This document shows, piece by piece, positions 2 to 54,610 of a stretch of DNA of 64,000 nt. The position numbers and the translations under genes were made by a program. The stretch's first letter is position 1. Every line of letters starts with the position of its first letter. The stretch comes from an uncultured Paracoccaceae bacterium (GTDB lineage: Bacteria > Pseudomonadota > Alphaproteobacteria > Rhodobacterales > Rhodobacteraceae), in NCBI GenBank assembly GCA_947499725.1, contig CANMPK010000007.1:1-64000 (forward strand), in the 5' to 3' direction. The notes below the pieces were generated by a model that ran no database searches, had not been told where the DNA came from, and worked only from the letters and a program-made list of their open reading frames with translations.

Positions 2-77
2 TGGTGCCCCCACACGGACTCGAACCGCGGACCTACTGATTACAAATCAGTTGCTCTACCAGCTGAGCTATAGGGGC
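2..77 (-). tRNA. tRNA-Thr (anticodon TGT), CCA encoded
   Basis: Reverse complement GCCCCTATAGCTCAGCTGGTAGAGCAACTGATTTGTAATCAGTAGGTCCGCGGTTCGAGTCCGTGTGGGGGCACCA folds as a cloverleaf; anticodon loop TTTGTAA; GGTTCGAGTCC T-arm. Confidence 0.95.
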
Positions 78-235: not shown

Positions 236-251
236 GTTGACAGCCGTCAAC
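236..251. promoter_or_regulatory. repABC palindrome (parS-like), imperfect copy GTTGACAGCCGTCAAC
   Basis: Same core as two perfect palindromes at 1508-1527 and 4110-4127; overlaps repC stop codon. Confidence 0.7.
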
Positions 252-1461
252 TTTGCACCGCCCTCCCCTGCCCTAGCAGCGCTTTCACCATTGGCCATGC
301 CGTGAAACCTCCCGCCTCTGCCTTTTGTGTCAAGCTGCGCAGATAGCCGCCTGGGTTTTTAATATCGCCAATGCGTTGCAACATGCAGGCCAAAGTCACC
401 GAGGCCCCTTCTGGCCCCATCGCTTTCATCGCCCCTTGCCACACATCCGCAGAAATCCCCATCATCCGGTGCAGCACATGCGCGGTTTCCACCAATTGAT
501 GATTATGCCGGATCGGCTCTTGCGCATATGGCGCCACATCAGGACAAGCTTGCAGCACCAGTTCCACAGGCACAGCCCTTGGTGTTGGACGATCCAATGC
601 TTCCTCTTTCTGTTTCTCAGCTCTTTCAGATTCAAAAGTATATTTATTTGAATTCTGTATGTGCCGCTCATTTTGGCTGTCACAGGCGCTCAATTCTTCT
701 GTTTCAACGACAGGCTCACTCGGCTTATCCACAGGCTCAGGCGTCAAAAGCCCCTCAAATCGCAGCAAGGCTTCGCTCAGCGCGTCACAGAGGCCCCTCA
801 CCTGCTCCAGGCTCAGAACACGGCGCAGGCGCTTCTGGGCGGCTGTCAGTGCTTCTTCCAGGGTCTCCCACGGGCCAGCCATCCCTTTGGCGCGCACATA
901 CTCCAGCAGCTTCCAGCAATCACGTTTCATCAGCATCGCCTCTTCACGGGCGCGCTTGATGCGTTCTGCCACTTCTTTGGCCTCATCCGCAGCCACGAAA
1001 ATCTCCGCAGTACGCGACACCAGCGGACGTAAATCAAACCCAAAGGCCCGCGCAACCGCCCCACCCTTCTGGCGCACCGCATAGCGTTTGCCATTCGGGC
1101 TATCATGACGGGCAATAAGCCCCTGCCCCACTAGTGTTCCCAGATGACGACGTAACGTGCTTTCCGGCATCCCATGGGCGCGGCTCGCTAAGGTGCGATT
1201 GGATGGGAACACTACGAGCCCCTCGCCCGTCAGCTCTTCTCCACGATGAAAACTCAGCAACGCGTTCATCACCGTCAAAGCGCCCGCGTTCAAACCAAAG
1301 GCAGCCTTTGCCTCAGTCAACGCGCGCAGGATCTCCCACTTGTTGACCGACACAATCGCTGCATCGTCTTTCGCCAAATCCGCACGCGCCTGCTGCGCAC
1401 GTTTGATCAGGCCAGCCGTCACCGGCCGCTGCCCAAAGGGCGTCGTCGTCAATACGTCCAT
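247..1461 (-). CDS. repC: plasmid replication initiator RepC
   Basis: ORF with RepC-type N-terminus (MDVLTTTPFGQRPVTAGLIKRAQQA..., VFPSNRTLASRAHGMPESTLRRHL) downstream of repA and repB; start assigned at internal ATG. Confidence 0.92.
   Translation of the reverse strand: MDVLTTTPFGQRPVTAGLIKRAQQARADLAKDDAAIVSVNKWEILRALTEAKAAFGLNAGALTVMNALLSFHRGEELTGEGLVVFPSNRTLASRAHGMPESTLRRHLGTLVGQGLIARHDSPNGKRYAVRQKGGAVARAFGFDLRPLVSRTAEIFVAADEAKEVAERIKRAREEAMLMKRDCWKLLEYVRAKGMAGPWETLEEALTAAQKRLRRVLSLEQVRGLCDALSEALLRFEGLLTPEPVDKPSEPVVETEELSACDSQNERHIQNSNKYTFESERAEKQKEEALDRPTPRAVPVELVLQACPDVAPYAQEPIRHNHQLVETAHVLHRMMGISADVWQGAMKAMGPEGASVTLACMLQRIGDIKNPGGYLRSLTQKAEAGGFTAWPMVKALLGQGRAVQS
725..733 (+). promoter_or_regulatory. 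consensus DnaA box TTATCCACA inside repC, near an AT-rich tract (about 601-660); candidate oriV element
   Basis: Exact TTATCCACA match read in sequence. Confidence 0.45.
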
Positions 1462-1507
1462 TATTTTGCCACGAGACAAAGAAATTCCGCCCGCCGGAGT
1501 CCGACGC

Positions 1508-1527
1508 CTGTTGACAGCTGTCAACAG
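1508..1527. promoter_or_regulatory. perfect 20-bp palindrome CTGTTGACAGCTGTCAACAG (parS-like) in repB-repC intergenic region
   Basis: Self-reverse-complementary; shared core GTTGACAGCTGTCAAC with 4110-4127. Confidence 0.8.
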
Positions 1528-1529
1528 TT

Positions 1530-1681
1530 AGCCATAGATTCGGAGTTGCTAAACTCGAATTGAGGCCTCTCGGGTTGATCTCTGCAAAGATCATTCTGGG
1601 GGGCTTTAATTTTTTACTCTGTCTGTTTGTGCCTCCTTAAGACTGCTCAATGTTGCGGACCCTCTGCAAAGGGCCTCTGGT
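1530..1681 (+). ncRNA. candidate antisense ctRNA/incompatibility region between repB and repC
   Basis: Position typical of repABC countertranscribed RNA; hairpins TGATCT-CTGCAA-AGATCA (1576-1593) and CCCT-CTGCAA-AGGG (1660-1673); T-rich run near 1610. Confidence 0.35.
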
Positions 1682-2662
1682 TTATTCGCCAGACTGGTTT
1701 TTCCAGTTCTGATGAATCTCTGAGAGGTTTTTTAACAGCCAGTCATCAAAGCCGTCTGTCTCCTCTTTGAATGTCACGACCATCTTGCCGCCAGACCAGG
1801 TCACGCGGCCAAACTCTGCGCCCACTGCATCTTTCAGCGGGTGGGCCGTGGGTGTTTTCTTCGGCTTGCTTGGCGCACGGGCCGCCAGCTTTGCCTCGAT
1901 CTGCATCAGCAACGATTTGAACCGCTGATCAGAGCTTTCCTTGGGTGAAATCAGTGCAACCGCTTCTTCCGCGCCCATCTGGGTCTTCTCCAGCAGGCCA
2001 GAGAGTGCCAACCACCGATCACGTCCCACCGCGGGGGCAGGGCCGATGGCCTCAATCAACTCCACTGGGATCAGGTCTGCCACGGTCAGCATCCGGCTGA
2101 TCACGGTCTTATCCACGTGCAGCGCATCGCCAATCACCTTGCGATCATAGCCCGCATCCCGCATCTGCCGCGCAAAGTTCGCGCGTTCGATAAAGGTCAG
2201 GTCTTTACGGGCGGTGTTCTCTTGCCCCTGCGCAATCAACAGCTCGCGATCATCCAGATCACGGATTAGCGCCTTGGCTGCAATGCCCAGATCTTTCAGC
2301 GCCCGCAGACGGCGACGCCCATAGACCACTTGAAACCGCCCTGGGTTCTCAGGGTTCGGGCGCAACAGCACCGGCACCTGTTGGCCATAGTCACGGATCG
2401 ACTGCATCAGCGCCTTATGATCGGCCTCATCATGGTCCAACCGGTCCACATTGCCGGCCATATCAATCAGATCAACGTCTATGTCGCTCACAGACCGGCT
2501 TTTCAGATCTGCAATCGACTGGCTCACCGCGCCAATCGCGCCTTTCTTGTACCGCGGCGTGGCAGGTTTCGTCGCCGCAGATGGGGCAGGGGAGGGGGCT
2601 GGCGTATCAGCACCCGCCTTGGCCTCGTCCATCAGCCCTTGCAATAGGTTCTTACGCGCCAT
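1682..2662 (-). CDS. repB: plasmid partitioning protein RepB (ParB family)
   Basis: ParB/RepB domain (VLLRPNPENPGRFQVVYGRRRLRALKDLGIAAKALIRDLDDRELLIAQGQENTARKDLTFIERANFA). Confidence 0.94.
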   Translation of the reverse strand: MARKNLLQGLMDEAKAGADTPAPSPAPSAATKPATPRYKKGAIGAVSQSIADLKSRSVSDIDVDLIDMAGNVDRLDHDEADHKALMQSIRDYGQQVPVLLRPNPENPGRFQVVYGRRRLRALKDLGIAAKALIRDLDDRELLIAQGQENTARKDLTFIERANFARQMRDAGYDRKVIGDALHVDKTVISRMLTVADLIPVELIEAIGPAPAVGRDRWLALSGLLEKTQMGAEEAVALISPKESSDQRFKSLLMQIEAKLAARAPSKPKKTPTAHPLKDAVGAEFGRVTWSGGKMVVTFKEETDGFDDWLLKNLSEIHQNWKNQSGE

Positions 2663-3842
2663 TCATCCGCCCCCATGCTTGCTGTACCAGCTCTTCAATC
2701 TCGCCATTCACCGCGTTCAGCGATTCAATCGCCCGATCATAGGTCGCCCGCGTGAATTGAGACTTTTCCACCTCATAAAGCGTCTGTTTGGTGATCCCCG
2801 CATCGGAAATCGCGGTGGATTTCAACACCGTGTGGTTCAAAACATGCTCGCCAAACATCGATCGCATGAACGAAACCATCTGGTTCTGCGGCCCATCACC
2901 GGGCTCATAGCGCGTCACCACGTAGCGCATCCAATCATACGACATATCACCCCCCGCTTCGGCCACAACGCCCAGCAGGTTGGATGTCATAAGCAAGAAC
3001 TGACACATAGACATCACGTCCAGCATCTGTGGATGCACGGTCACCAATACCGCAGTGGCGGATGACAAAGCACTCATCGTCAAGAAACCCAGCTGCGGCG
3101 GACAATCCATCACAACAACGTCGTAATCAGACTCTACTTCAGCCAAAACGTCCCCAACGCGGGTGAAAAACAACCCGCCTGTGCGGTCTGCAATGGCGCG
3201 AGGCGTCTCGTGTTCAAACTCCATCAAGTCCAGATTGCCCGGAATGATATCGAGGTTCGTGAAATAGGTGCTTTGGATAATATCGCGCACCGGCACAGGG
3301 TCTTCATAGCGGATCGCATCATACAATGTGCCGCCATCCAGCAGGTCAAACTCAGGCTGAAACCCGTGCAGCGCACTTAGCGAGGCCTGTGGATCAAGGT
3401 CCACCGCCAGCACCTTATAGCCATCCAGCGCCATTTTCTGCGCCAAATGGGCCGATGTGGTGGTCTTACCAGAGCCACCCTTAAAGTTAATCACCGTAAT
3501 CACCTGCAAATGGTCGCCGTCACGGCGCCCTGGCAGGTAAGTCCCAGGCACTTTTGCGCCCGCTTCCAGCAAAACACGCAGGGCCTGCACGTCTTCTGGG
3601 GAATAATAGCGCCGCCCACCGGCACGGATCTCAGGCTCTGGGCCTTTCCCGTCCAAATGCAGCTTCCGCAAATAGGCATCCTTTACACCCAGCAAATCCG
3701 CCGCTTCACCGGATGTGAACTTGCGCAATTCTTTGCTGGCGTTCGGAGGAAACAACTGCTCGCGATGCGCCTGCAGCCGTTCTGACAATTTCAAAGCATG
3801 CTCACCGACAAGTTGGTCGATGCGCGTTTGTGTTGGGGTCAT
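2652..3842 (-). CDS. repA: plasmid partitioning ATPase RepA (ParA family)
   Basis: Walker A-type NFKGGSGKTTTSAHLAQ, VLAVDLDPQASLSALHG; N-terminal MerR-like HTH; start at internal ATG (MTPTQTRID). Confidence 0.94.
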   Translation of the reverse strand: MTPTQTRIDQLVGEHALKLSERLQAHREQLFPPNASKELRKFTSGEAADLLGVKDAYLRKLHLDGKGPEPEIRAGGRRYYSPEDVQALRVLLEAGAKVPGTYLPGRRDGDHLQVITVINFKGGSGKTTTSAHLAQKMALDGYKVLAVDLDPQASLSALHGFQPEFDLLDGGTLYDAIRYEDPVPVRDIIQSTYFTNLDIIPGNLDLMEFEHETPRAIADRTGGLFFTRVGDVLAEVESDYDVVVMDCPPQLGFLTMSALSSATAVLVTVHPQMLDVMSMCQFLLMTSNLLGVVAEAGGDMSYDWMRYVVTRYEPGDGPQNQMVSFMRSMFGEHVLNHTVLKSTAISDAGITKQTLYEVEKSQFTRATYDRAIESLNAVNGEIEELVQQAWGRMNGA

Positions 3843-3992
3843 AGGTCCCTCAATATACCGCTGGGCCGCTTGTGCAGCCTCTTCTACCTCTAGGCATCTA
3901 CCGTTTGTTACGGAGAAACCCGTTTTATTCACTTATTACCGTAAGTATTGGGGCAATTGAACCGAGTCGCGCAAGTCTTTTCTACATCCGGC

Positions 3993-49995: not shown

Positions 49996-50868
49996 CTAAT
50001 CCACCAAACCCGCCAAATACCGGCCAAACGCATTCTTCCCAAACATCTTGGCGCGCTCCAGCAGCTGCTCTTTAGAAATCCAGCCCGCCTCGTAAGCGAT
50101 CTCTTCCAAACAGCCAGTTTGCATGCCCTGCCGGTTTTCCAGGGTCCGCACAAAGTTCCCAGCGTCCAGCAAAGACCCGTGGGTGCCTGTATCCAGCCAA
50201 GCATAGCCACGCCCCATCAGTTGCACGTCTAGTTGCCCATCGGCCAGATAGCCTTCCAACAGCGTGACGATCTCAAGCTCTCCACGCGCAGACGGTTGAA
50301 CTGCTTTCGCACGCTCAGGCGCGGTTTCATCAACGAAATAGATCCCCGTCACCGCATAATTGCTCGGCGCGACCTCAGGTTTTTCGATGATCGATTTCAC
50401 CTGACCGCCCTTATCAAAATCCACCACGCCATAGCGTTCCGGATCCGCCACGCGATACCCAAAGACCGAAGCGCCAACCTCTTTTTCATTGGCGCCTTCC
50501 AGCAACTTGGGCAAATCAGCGCCGTAGAAAATGTTGTCACCCAACACCAAAACCGAAGGGCTGCCGTCCAGAAAATCCTCGGCCAAGATAAAGGCCTGCG
50601 CCAAACCATCAGGGCTTGGCTGCACAATATAGGTCAGCTCGATCCCCCACTGGCTGCCATCTCCAAGGGTCCGGATAAATTGTTCTTGATCCTGCGGGGT
50701 GGTGATGATCGCAATCTCGCGGATACCGGCCAGCATCAGCACCGAGATCGGATAGTAGATCATCGGCTTATCGTAGACAGGCAACAGCTGCTTAGACACA
50801 CCAATGGTGATCGGATAGAGCCGCGTTCCAGAGCCCCCAGCGAGAACAATCCCTTTGCGTTGCGTCAT
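49996..50868 (-). CDS. rfbA: glucose-1-phosphate thymidylyltransferase
   Basis: KGIVLAGGSGTRLYPITIGVSKQLLPVYDKPMIYYP. Confidence 0.96.
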   Translation of the reverse strand: MTQRKGIVLAGGSGTRLYPITIGVSKQLLPVYDKPMIYYPISVLMLAGIREIAIITTPQDQEQFIRTLGDGSQWGIELTYIVQPSPDGLAQAFILAEDFLDGSPSVLVLGDNIFYGADLPKLLEGANEKEVGASVFGYRVADPERYGVVDFDKGGQVKSIIEKPEVAPSNYAVTGIYFVDETAPERAKAVQPSARGELEIVTLLEGYLADGQLDVQLMGRGYAWLDTGTHGSLLDAGNFVRTLENRQGMQTGCLEEIAYEAGWISKEQLLERAKMFGKNAFGRYLAGLVD

Positions 50869-51716
50869 ACGGTAGGCTCCTTCAATTCAGCCAGCACCTG
50901 CGCCAGGCTGCGGCGCCAATCAGGGCGCTTGATAGCAAAATCTTGCTCTAATGTCGCGCAATCCATACGCGAATTATAAGGGCGTTTGGCAGGGGTCGGA
51001 TAGTCACTTGCGGGAATATCCGTCACGTCCACCTTCAGACCCACCTGCGCAAAAATCTCGCGGGCGAAATCCGCCCAGCTCACATCTGGCGCTCCGGCAA
51101 AGTGATAGGTGCCACTTGGGCGGCCATCGACCAATTGCTTGGCCATCGAAAGACACACCGCTGCGATCTCAGCCGCTCCTGTGGGCCCGCCGATCTGATC
51201 GGCGACAACGGTCAAAGCATCGCGGCTCTCACCAAGCCGTAGCATGGTTTTCACAAAGTTATTGCCATGGGCCGAGAACACCCAAGAGGTGCGCAAAATC
51301 GCATAGGACCCACCAGCTGCACGAATACCATCCTCGCCCGCCAGCTTACTACGCCCATAGGCGCCAATCGGCGCAGGCGCATCCTCTGTTTGCCAAGGGG
51401 CATCGCCAGAACCATCAAACACATAGTCGGTGGAAATATGCACCAGCGGAATGCCCTTCGCCGCGCAGGCCTGCGCCATCGCTGTGGGAGCCGCGCCATT
51501 GATCACGCTCGCCAAAGCCTCTTCCTCTTCGGCCTTGTCCACCGCGGTGTAAGCAGCCGCGTTGATCACCACATCCACATCCTGCGCCGCAATCGCGGCC
51601 GCGCAGGCGGCGGGGTCACTCAAATCAGCATCCTCACGCCCCAAAGCAATCACATCTGCCTGACGCCGAAGTTCGGTCGCCACCTGACCCGTTTTACCAA
51701 AGACGAGGATCTTCAT
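50865..51716 (-). CDS. rfbD: dTDP-4-dehydrorhamnose reductase
   Basis: [30 protein letters not shown]. Confidence 0.95.
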
Positions 51717-52762
51717 GCCTTCACACCCAGTCGCTGCCCAACGCCCTCACGGCTCTGCAAAGCGCGCCACCAATCCTCATTGGCCAGATACCACTCCACC
51801 GTTTTGCGCAGCCCTTCCTCCACCGTCACAGACGGACGCCAGCCCAGCTCGTCACGAATACGACTAGGATCAATCGCATAGCGCGCATCATGCCCCGGGC
51901 GATCCGTCACAAATGTAATCAAATCTGCATAAGAGCCTTCTTCGCGCGGGCGCAGCTCATCCAAGATGCCACAAATGGTCTGCACCAACTCCAGATTGCT
52001 CCGCTCGTTTTTACCGCCAATATTATAGCTGCGGCCAAGCTCGCCTTTTTGCACAACCAGCAACAGCGCATCTGCGTGATCTTCCACATACAGCCAATCG
52101 CGCACGTTCGAGCCATCCCCATAAATCGGCAAAGGCTTGCCCGCCAAAGCATTCAAGATCACCACAGGGATCAGCTTCTCTGGGAAATGATAGGGGCCAT
52201 AGTTGTTCGAGCAATTGGTCAGAACAACCGGCAGCCCATAGGTTTCCGCCCAAGCGCGCACCAAATGATCAGAGGCGGCTTTAGAGGCCGAATACGGGCT
52301 GCGTGGATCATAAGAGGTCTCTTCGGTGAATTGCACAGAAGGATCCGCAGGCAGCGATCCATAGACCTCATCAGTAGAGATATGATGAAACCGGAAGCCC
52401 TCAGGTTTGCCTTGATCCAACCAATACTTACGCGCGGCTTCCAGCATATTGAACGTGCCGGTGATATTGGTCTCGATAAAGTCGGACGGCCCATCGATCG
52501 AACGGTCCACATGGCTTTCTGCGGCCAGATGCATCACCACATCAGGTTTGGTCTCAGCAAAGGTGTTTTCCAGCGCGACACGATCCCGAATATCAACCTG
52601 TTTGAAAACATAATGTTCACTATCGGCAACTTCAGAAACATTCTCCAAACAGGCCGCATAGGTCAGCACATCAAGGTTCACCACCTCATGCCCGCGCGCA
52701 ATCGCAAGCCGCACAACGGCCGACCCAATGAACCCTGCCCCGCCTGTCACTAAGATCTTCAT
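51713..52762 (-). CDS. rfbB: dTDP-glucose 4,6-dehydratase
   Basis: [47 protein letters not shown]. Confidence 0.96.
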
Positions 52763-52765
52763 GTC

Positions 52766-53320
52766 TTATCCTTCGTATACAAACGGACTGTCAAAATCCG
52801 CGAGCGCTGGCGCTGCTTCGTCTTTTTCAGACAAGATTGGCGTGCCGTCAAAGTTCCAATCAATCCCGCAACTGTCCCAACGCACAGCGCCATCGCATTC
52901 CGGCGCATAGTAGTCAGAACATTTATAAACAATCTCTGTGTCCGGCTGCAGAGTGATAAACCCATGCAGGAACCCTTCCGGGATCAGCAGTTGTTTCCCA
53001 TTCTCAAAGCTCAGCTCTTCGCCAACCCATTGGCCATAGGTCGGGCTACCTTTTCTGATATCGACAGCAACATCAAACAAAGCCCCTTGCCCACAGCGCA
53101 CCAATTTCGCTTGTGCGTGCGGCGGCGCCTGAAAATGAAGCCCGCGCACCGTGCCAACCTCGCGAGATAGCGAATGGTTGTCTTGGACAAACTCAGTGGT
53201 GACGCCATGCTCTGCCATACGCTGGCGACTATAGCTTTCGCTGAAAAAACCGCGATGGTCACCGAAGCGAGCTGGAGTAAGGCAAAGGACACCTAGGGGT
53301 GATCTTGTTTCGACTTTCAA
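52766..53320 (-). CDS. rfbC: dTDP-4-dehydrorhamnose 3,5-epimerase
   Basis: RFGDHRGFFSESYSRQRM; FVQDNHSLSREVGTVRGLHFQAPPHAQAKLVR. Confidence 0.96.
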   Translation of the reverse strand: MKVETRSPLGVLCLTPARFGDHRGFFSESYSRQRMAEHGVTTEFVQDNHSLSREVGTVRGLHFQAPPHAQAKLVRCGQGALFDVAVDIRKGSPTYGQWVGEELSFENGKQLLIPEGFLHGFITLQPDTEIVYKCSDYYAPECDGAVRWDSCGIDWNFDGTPILSEKDEAAPALADFDSPFVYEG

Positions 53321-53790
53321 CGGAGCTCAAACCTTATTTTTGGTGCGCAAGTTATTCGCGTAACTCGAGCGCATTTCCATACTTATTGAGACACATCGCT
53401 GACACATGCAACAAAATTGGGCCTCACAACCAATCAGCAAATCAATAAATCGTAGGTAAGTGGAAGCAACCGACATATCTGAATTACAAATCTAAACGCT
53501 GAGACTTAAAGAACTCATTCGCTTGCATCACTCAACCTTCATTACTTTTTTAGCGACACTAAGCATTAGCATTTTGAGGGCGATTTTCGATATGCAGTGC
53601 TTGCAAAAACCTGAACCCACGAAGGAAAAACATAGTGATGTTCGCTTTGGGCGCTCAAAGAATGGCACACACGTAACGCAGCAACTGTAATTTCAGTGTA
53701 AGTGATTGTTTTATTTAGAATAAAGTGCGGCTCAGGACTCAAATACCATTGCCATTTTTCTTTCAATAATTTCAAGAACTTACACGGCAA

Positions 53791-53881
53791 ATGGCCAGCA
53801 TGGCCCATCTGCTAAACCATCTTGGGCCAGATTGGCCACCTCATTGGGCCAAGGTGGTCCAAAGTGGGCCACACTGGTCAA
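53791..53881. repeat. near-helically phased array of TGG(G)CCA-type motifs
   Basis: TGGCCA 53792, TGGCCCA 53801, TGGGCCA 53823, TGGCCA 53833, TGGGCCA 53845, TGGTCCA 53855, TGGGCCA 53865, TGGTCA 53875; most spacings 9-12 bp, one 22 bp. Confidence 0.75.
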
Positions 53882-53949
53882 ACTAGATAGAAAACATAAT
53901 GTTTTCAGATGCATGACGCGCCATTTAATTCTGGAACACTTACTGATCC

Positions 53950-54293
53950 TCCCCAACTGAACTGGTCCACCTCTATGTTTAGGAAGCGGAGGACCAAGAA
54001 TGGCGAATATGCGATCAAAACCCGAAGAGATCGCCTCGAAGTTAGGGCAAGTTGAAGTGTTTAAGGCACAAGGCATATCCCCTCTGGATACAATCAGACA
54101 GATCGGTGTCGTTGAACAAACCAATTACCGCCGGCGAAAGAAGTATGGTGGAATGGGAGTAAACCAATTGAAAGAACTTAAGCGGCTTCAAAAAGAAAAT
54201 AAGCGTCTGAGAATAGTAGTCTCTGATCTGACGTTCGACAAATTGATCTGTCTGACCTCAGCGCTTATGGGGCCAAATTGGGCAATTGGCTAA
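53950..54293 (+). mobile_element. IS3-family remnant with truncated OrfA
   Basis: MRSKPEEIASKLGQVEVFKAQGISPLDTIRQIGV...LKELKRLQKENKRLRIVVSDLTFDKLI then loss of homology. Confidence 0.7.
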
Positions 54294-54610
54294 GAGAGTG
54301 TTTGCTTCTCATCGTAGCCACCGAGGAGTGGGCGATGAGAAGGCCCGGACCGTACTTGATGGACTGCGTTGCGAGGACAGTATCCCGGAGCTGTGCCGTC
54401 GCGAGGGTATACCCCAGGGCCTGCATTACAAGTGGTCAAAGGACTTCATGGAGGCCGGGAGAAGCGCTTGGCTGGCGATACAGCTCGGGTCGCGAACACG
54501 GGCGAGGTTAAAGAGCTGAACCGGGACGCAAAAGACCTCAAGGCAATGGTCGCTGAACGTTAGCTTGAGCTGCGTCTTCTCAAAAATGCATGCTCAGGGA
54601 TGGGGCCGAC
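54286..54610 (+). pseudogene. second IS3-family OrfA remnant, frameshifted
   Basis: EKARTVLDGLRCEDSIPELCRREGIPQGLHYKWSKDFMEAG continues in another frame as EKRLAGDTARVANTGEVKELNRDAKDLKAMVAER*. Confidence 0.7.

Follow-up and report, generated by a model that had tools for sequence, protein, structure and literature searches.

A phased array of TGGNCCA-type sites at 53792-53880 of the window, the whole 64-kb stretch of DNA analysed here, is in all probability the accessory-protein binding part of a conjugative origin of transfer (oriT) of the MobF type (TrwC/TraI class), lying on the minus strand, where a nic core follows 109 bp downstream. With its array, the element is probably an orphan, decaying MobF-type oriT. 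This kind of element is known; its layout was not found described in a limited literature search. The window is part of contig C7 (82,948 bp) of a marine bacterial genome of 3.15 Mb in 14 contigs, and its features around the putative oriT are as follows.

52766-53320, minus strand: rfbC, first gene of rfbCBDA, adjoining the oriT
53640-53667, minus strand: stretch 3' of the nic core, TGAGCGCCCAAAGCGAA, aligning with TGAGGCCCGAAGGGCCGAA of MobF plasmids
53668-53700, minus strand: putative oriT core, TACACTGAAATTACAGTTGCTGCGTTACGTGTG, from consensus match, matrix and analogy with R388
53792, read on the plus strand: array site 1, TGGCCA
53801, read on the plus strand: array site 2, TGGCCCA
53823, read on the plus strand: array site 3, TGGGCCA
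53833, read on the plus strand: array site 4, TGGCCA
53845, read on the plus strand: array site 5, TGGGCCA
53855, read on the plus strand: array site 6, TGGTCCA
53865, read on the plus strand: array site 7, TGGGCCA
53875, read on the plus strand: array site 8, TGGTCA
53944-54595, plus strand: two IS3-family relics, on the side where intact plasmids have the accessory gene and mobF

The array is clustered and helically phased

The original prediction described a helically phased array in noncoding DNA, with eight motifs at start spacings of 9, 22, 10, 12, 10, 10 and 10 bp, and a recount of the TGGNCCA, TGGCCA and TGGTCA sites gave identical values. All sites fell within the proposed span of 53791-53881, the exact limits being 53792-53880 (minus strand, motifs read on the plus strand). 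The phase is almost unbroken, because a degenerate ninth unit, TAAACCA (53813-53819), with two G-to-A changes relative to TGGNCCA, fills the 22-bp gap. A pairing of the form TGGGCCA-N3-TGGYCA is present in the sequence as had been proposed, though not as a special pair unit: it consists of two successive 10-bp units.

Against the eight sites in 90 bp, 60 order-2 Markov simulations of the full window peaked at 2-4, and 2000 order-1 simulations run on the intergenic region reached no more than 2 per 90 bp. The single word TGGSCCA is not enriched in the window (17 observed versus 14.1 expected); the special features of the array are clustering and phasing, not word frequency. A protein probably binds the phased array, and the array is linked to plasmid biology, both as originally supposed.

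The array occurs once in its own genome, lies outside the IS (plasmid IS matches begin at 53944, and the IS3-family relics 63 bp from the array) and is conserved in kind on other roseobacter replicons; equal density elsewhere in the genome, a match to an IS end and a lack of conservation on related replicons had been named as grounds for abandoning the prediction.

A nic-like core lies 109 bp from the array

On the minus strand, positions 53700-53668 read TACACTGA-N9-TGCTGCGTTACGTGTG, with zero mismatches to the searched consensus TRCRCTGA-N9-YGCTGCGTNANGTGTG. This segment contains a nic core of the TGCGT-N3-GT type, GCTGCGTTACGTGTG, at 53682-53668. In the oriT of the MOBF plasmid R388, a stem-loop is followed by TGCGTATTGTCT/ATAG, likewise a TGCGT-N3-GT-type nic (PMC4814116), and the Rhodobacterales plasmid cores resemble this region; by analogy with it, nic is predicted between 53669 and 53668 in the window.

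The core was looked for only after the plasmids described below had been seen, and the fair tests of it are its spacing and a matrix from which the window is excluded. The gap between array and core is 109 bp in the window, 110-111 bp in six relatives and 98-144 bp across all relatives. With a matrix from 11 other oriTs and the window left out, the core scores 32.7 bits and the runner-up in the 64 kb 1.7 bits. Much of the score is supplied by the 15-base core; by its flanks without the core, the site ranks first on the minus strand and below two plus-strand positions of the window. The nic sequence of the F plasmid is similar to this type of core.

The stem before nic is reduced in the window to 3 bp (CAG/CTG, -0.4 kcal/mol), against 4-5 bp in relatives and -2.6 to -4.8 kcal/mol in five of them, so that decay of the oriT is likely. 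A BLASTN search of plasmids with the window oriT gave chance matches only, in Pantoea, and no BLASTN-level similarity to a known oriT.

The same layout follows MobF relaxase operons on Rhodobacterales plasmids

BLASTN searches of plasmids with the intergenic region and the relics returned only IS among the matches listed, and BLASTN at the level of the region found no match in 59 other genomes. One genome per species was scanned for three TGGNCCA units at 10-bp phase, which gave 80 readable loci, most of them repeats in unrelated bacteria. At two Rhodobacterales loci (L024 and L060), picked up by the array alone, the array lies directly behind relaxase/helicase genes and a small gene, and these loci turned out to be MobF oriTs. 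Plasmid relatives of the L060 small protein mostly adjoin annotated MobF relaxases, and all six plasmid loci examined have an array phased at 10-11 bp within about 30 bp of the end of the small gene. The array is of the GGGCCA type in L192, L193, L195 and L196 and of the TGGCA/TGCCA type in L194 and L197; L192 is typed MOBP, with no mobF annotated in the stretch read. About 100-145 bp beyond the array, the plasmids have a CTGA-N9-YGCTGCGTNNNGTGTG-type sequence and a GCAGC/GCTGC stem-loop.

As read from these sequences, the Rhodobacterales MobF oriT layout is mobF, small gene, phased array, about 110 bp and the nic-like core YGCTGCGTNNNGTGTG. Because array and nic core stand in this arrangement directly downstream of MobF relaxase operons, the most plausible role of the window array is that of accessory part in a conjugative oriT. 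Phaeobacter piscinae pP14_b, Leisingera thetidis pBMJM1_2 and Pukyongiella litopenaei p1 have a phased array about 110 bp from a YGCTGCGTNNNGTGTG core in the same strand order. In these plasmids the array comes after mobF and the small gene, both missing in the window, which further differs in its weaker stem, its TGGNCCA units and its variable spacers.

A strict array pattern searched in 298 genomes of the family gave six matches besides the window, all taken as chance; the four with full flanks (L007, L008, L012, L013) resemble protein-coding DNA. Many dispersed 10-bp TGGNCCA arrays per genome were seen in Chloracidobacterium UBA3360 (L038, L040, L041 and others), the proteobacterium CALGBT (L022, L043 and others) and Rhodospirillales RHO3_bin_80 (L046, L050 and others), some of them sharing flanks. 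They were taken as unrelated repeats, and the core GCTGCGTNANGTGTG is absent from these array loci. Such arrays give some ground for regarding the window array as a functionless simple tandem repeat with a palindromic 10-bp unit, a reading we consider scarcely credible: its spacers vary from unit to unit, unlike those of slippage repeats, and both the distance and the strand of the nic core are as expected, the chance of a core within 160 bp being about 2e-6 by our own estimate. A scan of viral contigs returned 80 loci, which were searched for the core only. In Sinirhodobacter populi, six perfect TGGGCCATCT units occur at L062:3165-3221 in a locus with no nic core, though the core accompanies two TGGCA-type arrays of that genome (L231, L234).

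The array type co-varies with a small neighbouring protein

In an alignment of the small accessory proteins, an N-terminal strand-like segment has R-x-R wherever the array is GGGCC (L024, L060, L192, L193, L195, L196) and R-x-V/L wherever it is TGGCA/TGCCA (L194, L197, L201, L231). Collapsed to four versus four, the split gives p = 0.014, ignoring relatedness. This co-variation of array type with one residue of the neighbouring protein suggests that the small protein encoded after mobF binds and reads the array. The protein has no Pfam match, and a single-sequence structure model shows helices with low N-terminal confidence; the N-terminal pattern and the co-variation with the array suggest a possible ribbon-helix-helix fold.

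On intact Rhodobacterales plasmids, the small protein would probably bind cooperatively to the array, with one dimer on each 10-bp palindrome and all dimers on one helix face. The bound protein would build the relaxosome, helping MobF to nick at TGCGTNNNGTGT/G, and the nicked strand would then exit through the type IV channel. Such reading of the array would resemble the action of TrwA, a ribbon-helix-helix protein, at the R388 oriT and of TraM at the F oriT (PMC4853378, PMC12117103). The TraM sites of F (sbmA-C) are set back from nic and needed for efficient transfer (PMC12117103), as the putative accessory repeats of the window are set back by 109 bp; the F oriT differs in its repeat motif and also has TraY and IHF sites.

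R388 also carries stbDRs, 9-bp repeats with 2-bp spacers that are bound by StbA near the oriT (PMC3098194). Given this MOBF precedent, with repeats phased at 11 bp close to the oriT, the window array might be a plasmid stability or centromere site of that kind, which we hold to be very improbable: neither an stbA-like nor a par gene was seen next to the window array, and on MobF plasmids the array stands behind the relaxase operon and varies together with the small gene at that place. R388 differs besides in repeat sequence, gene order and proteins, and its StbA-bound stbDRs have a different kind of role. The array could also serve both stability and the oriT. A centromere, as originally suggested, finds no partition gene beside the array.

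The genome lacks a detectable MobF relaxase

Neither mobF nor its accessory gene was found in this genome, and a TrwC-family relaxase (PF08751) was detected in none of nine genomes of the genus (its own and eight congeners); as a control, the PF08751 model strongly detects roseobacter MobF proteins. A VirB/VirD4 system with a VirD2-like relaxase, of a different relaxase family from MobF, is encoded on contig C4 (L238, L241) and is the genome's own candidate for conjugation. A reverse-transcriptase gene (RVT_1; L239:905-2470) lies close to this VirB cluster, and congener G006 also has VirB4.

Contig C7 carries repABC at 247-3932 (minus strand), beside a tRNA-Thr at its very end (2-77, minus strand), and may represent part of a RepABC replicon or chromid. 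The array had also been proposed as a replication iteron, which did not hold up: repABC lies about 50 kb away, related arrays follow mobF rather than replicase genes, and the repeats beside a RepA-type replicase gene in a congener look different. In two congeners (G002 and G008; L017 and L018) such a replicase gene adjoins rfbC, and in L018 repeats of about 21-22 bp with a different sequence, TCAGAGTC, precede it. A fragment with a DnaA N-terminal domain (PF11638; 54846-55094, plus strand) is flanked by the IS relics and a polysaccharide gene. It has weak plasmid matches only and may be the remnant of a DnaA-like plasmid replicase; seen from the array, it lies beyond the IS relics.

On the other side lies the rfbCBDA (dTDP-rhamnose) operon (49996-53320). 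The position of the array about 470 bp upstream of rfbC and its phased palindromes, which fit cooperative regulators, would suit a repressor or activator site for the rfb/exopolysaccharide genes. We regard this as highly improbable, since none of the eight congener loci examined has the array upstream of rfbC and the nic core at oriT spacing would be left unexplained.

With mobF and its accessory gene missing from the genome, the putative oriT would depend on a visiting MobF plasmid acting in trans, unless it is a decaying relic, which is likelier. Plasmids with an oriT only, mobilized in trans (pOriT), are a known class (PMC11389934), and the window resembles them in having an oriT without a relaxase. 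That the oriT still functions, its replicon being mobilized by an entering MobF plasmid, is doubtful. The nic core without a consensus mismatch, the eight array units kept and the apparently relaxase-less oriTs on two other rhamnose plasmids typed non-mobilizable speak for it. Against it stand the nic-proximal stem, weaker than in five relatives, the degenerate array unit, the IS relics flanking the site and the lack of a known MobF helper in the genus; these signs of decay and the missing cognate helper also set the window apart from pOriT plasmids, and its mobilization is only proposed here.

Two other rhamnose plasmids carry apparently relaxase-less oriTs

The neighbourhood of oriT and rfbC seen in the window recurs on Leisingera aquaemixtae S166 plasmid unnamed3, typed non-mobilizable: an oriT sharing 82% identity with the pP14_b oriT lies about 1.6 kb from rfbC, and the 6.2 kb read contain no annotated relaxase. 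On Tritonibacter mobilis F1926 plasmid unnamed4, which is likewise typed non-mobilizable, a recombinase gene and an epimerase gene enclose a more diverged array and core. Both oriTs are apparently relaxase-less; the core is absent from the other eight rhamnose plasmids tested. Two Leisingera plasmids typed non-mobilizable (L205, L206) have oriT fragments with the core and without the array, beside integrases or a hypothetical gene.

We tentatively propose, as a joint claim that may well prove wrong, that roseobacter rhamnose/exopolysaccharide ('biofilm') replicons placed in the non-mobilizable class have repeatedly retained MobF oriTs without a relaxase and spread through mobilization in trans, and that the binding specificity of MobF accessory proteins is set by a short strand whose residues follow from the array (R-x-R for GGGCC, R-x-V/L for TGGCA). 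The co-variation offers a predicted protein-DNA recognition code. The Rhodobacterales MobF oriT layout identified here, which the limited literature search did not turn up, lets array, spacing and core serve in the search for orphan oriTs that BLASTN misses. The similar, apparently enzyme-less origins on two other rhamnose plasmids suggest how plasmids of this kind could spread as hitchhikers, which offers a testable path by which relaxase-less rhamnose plasmids may move.
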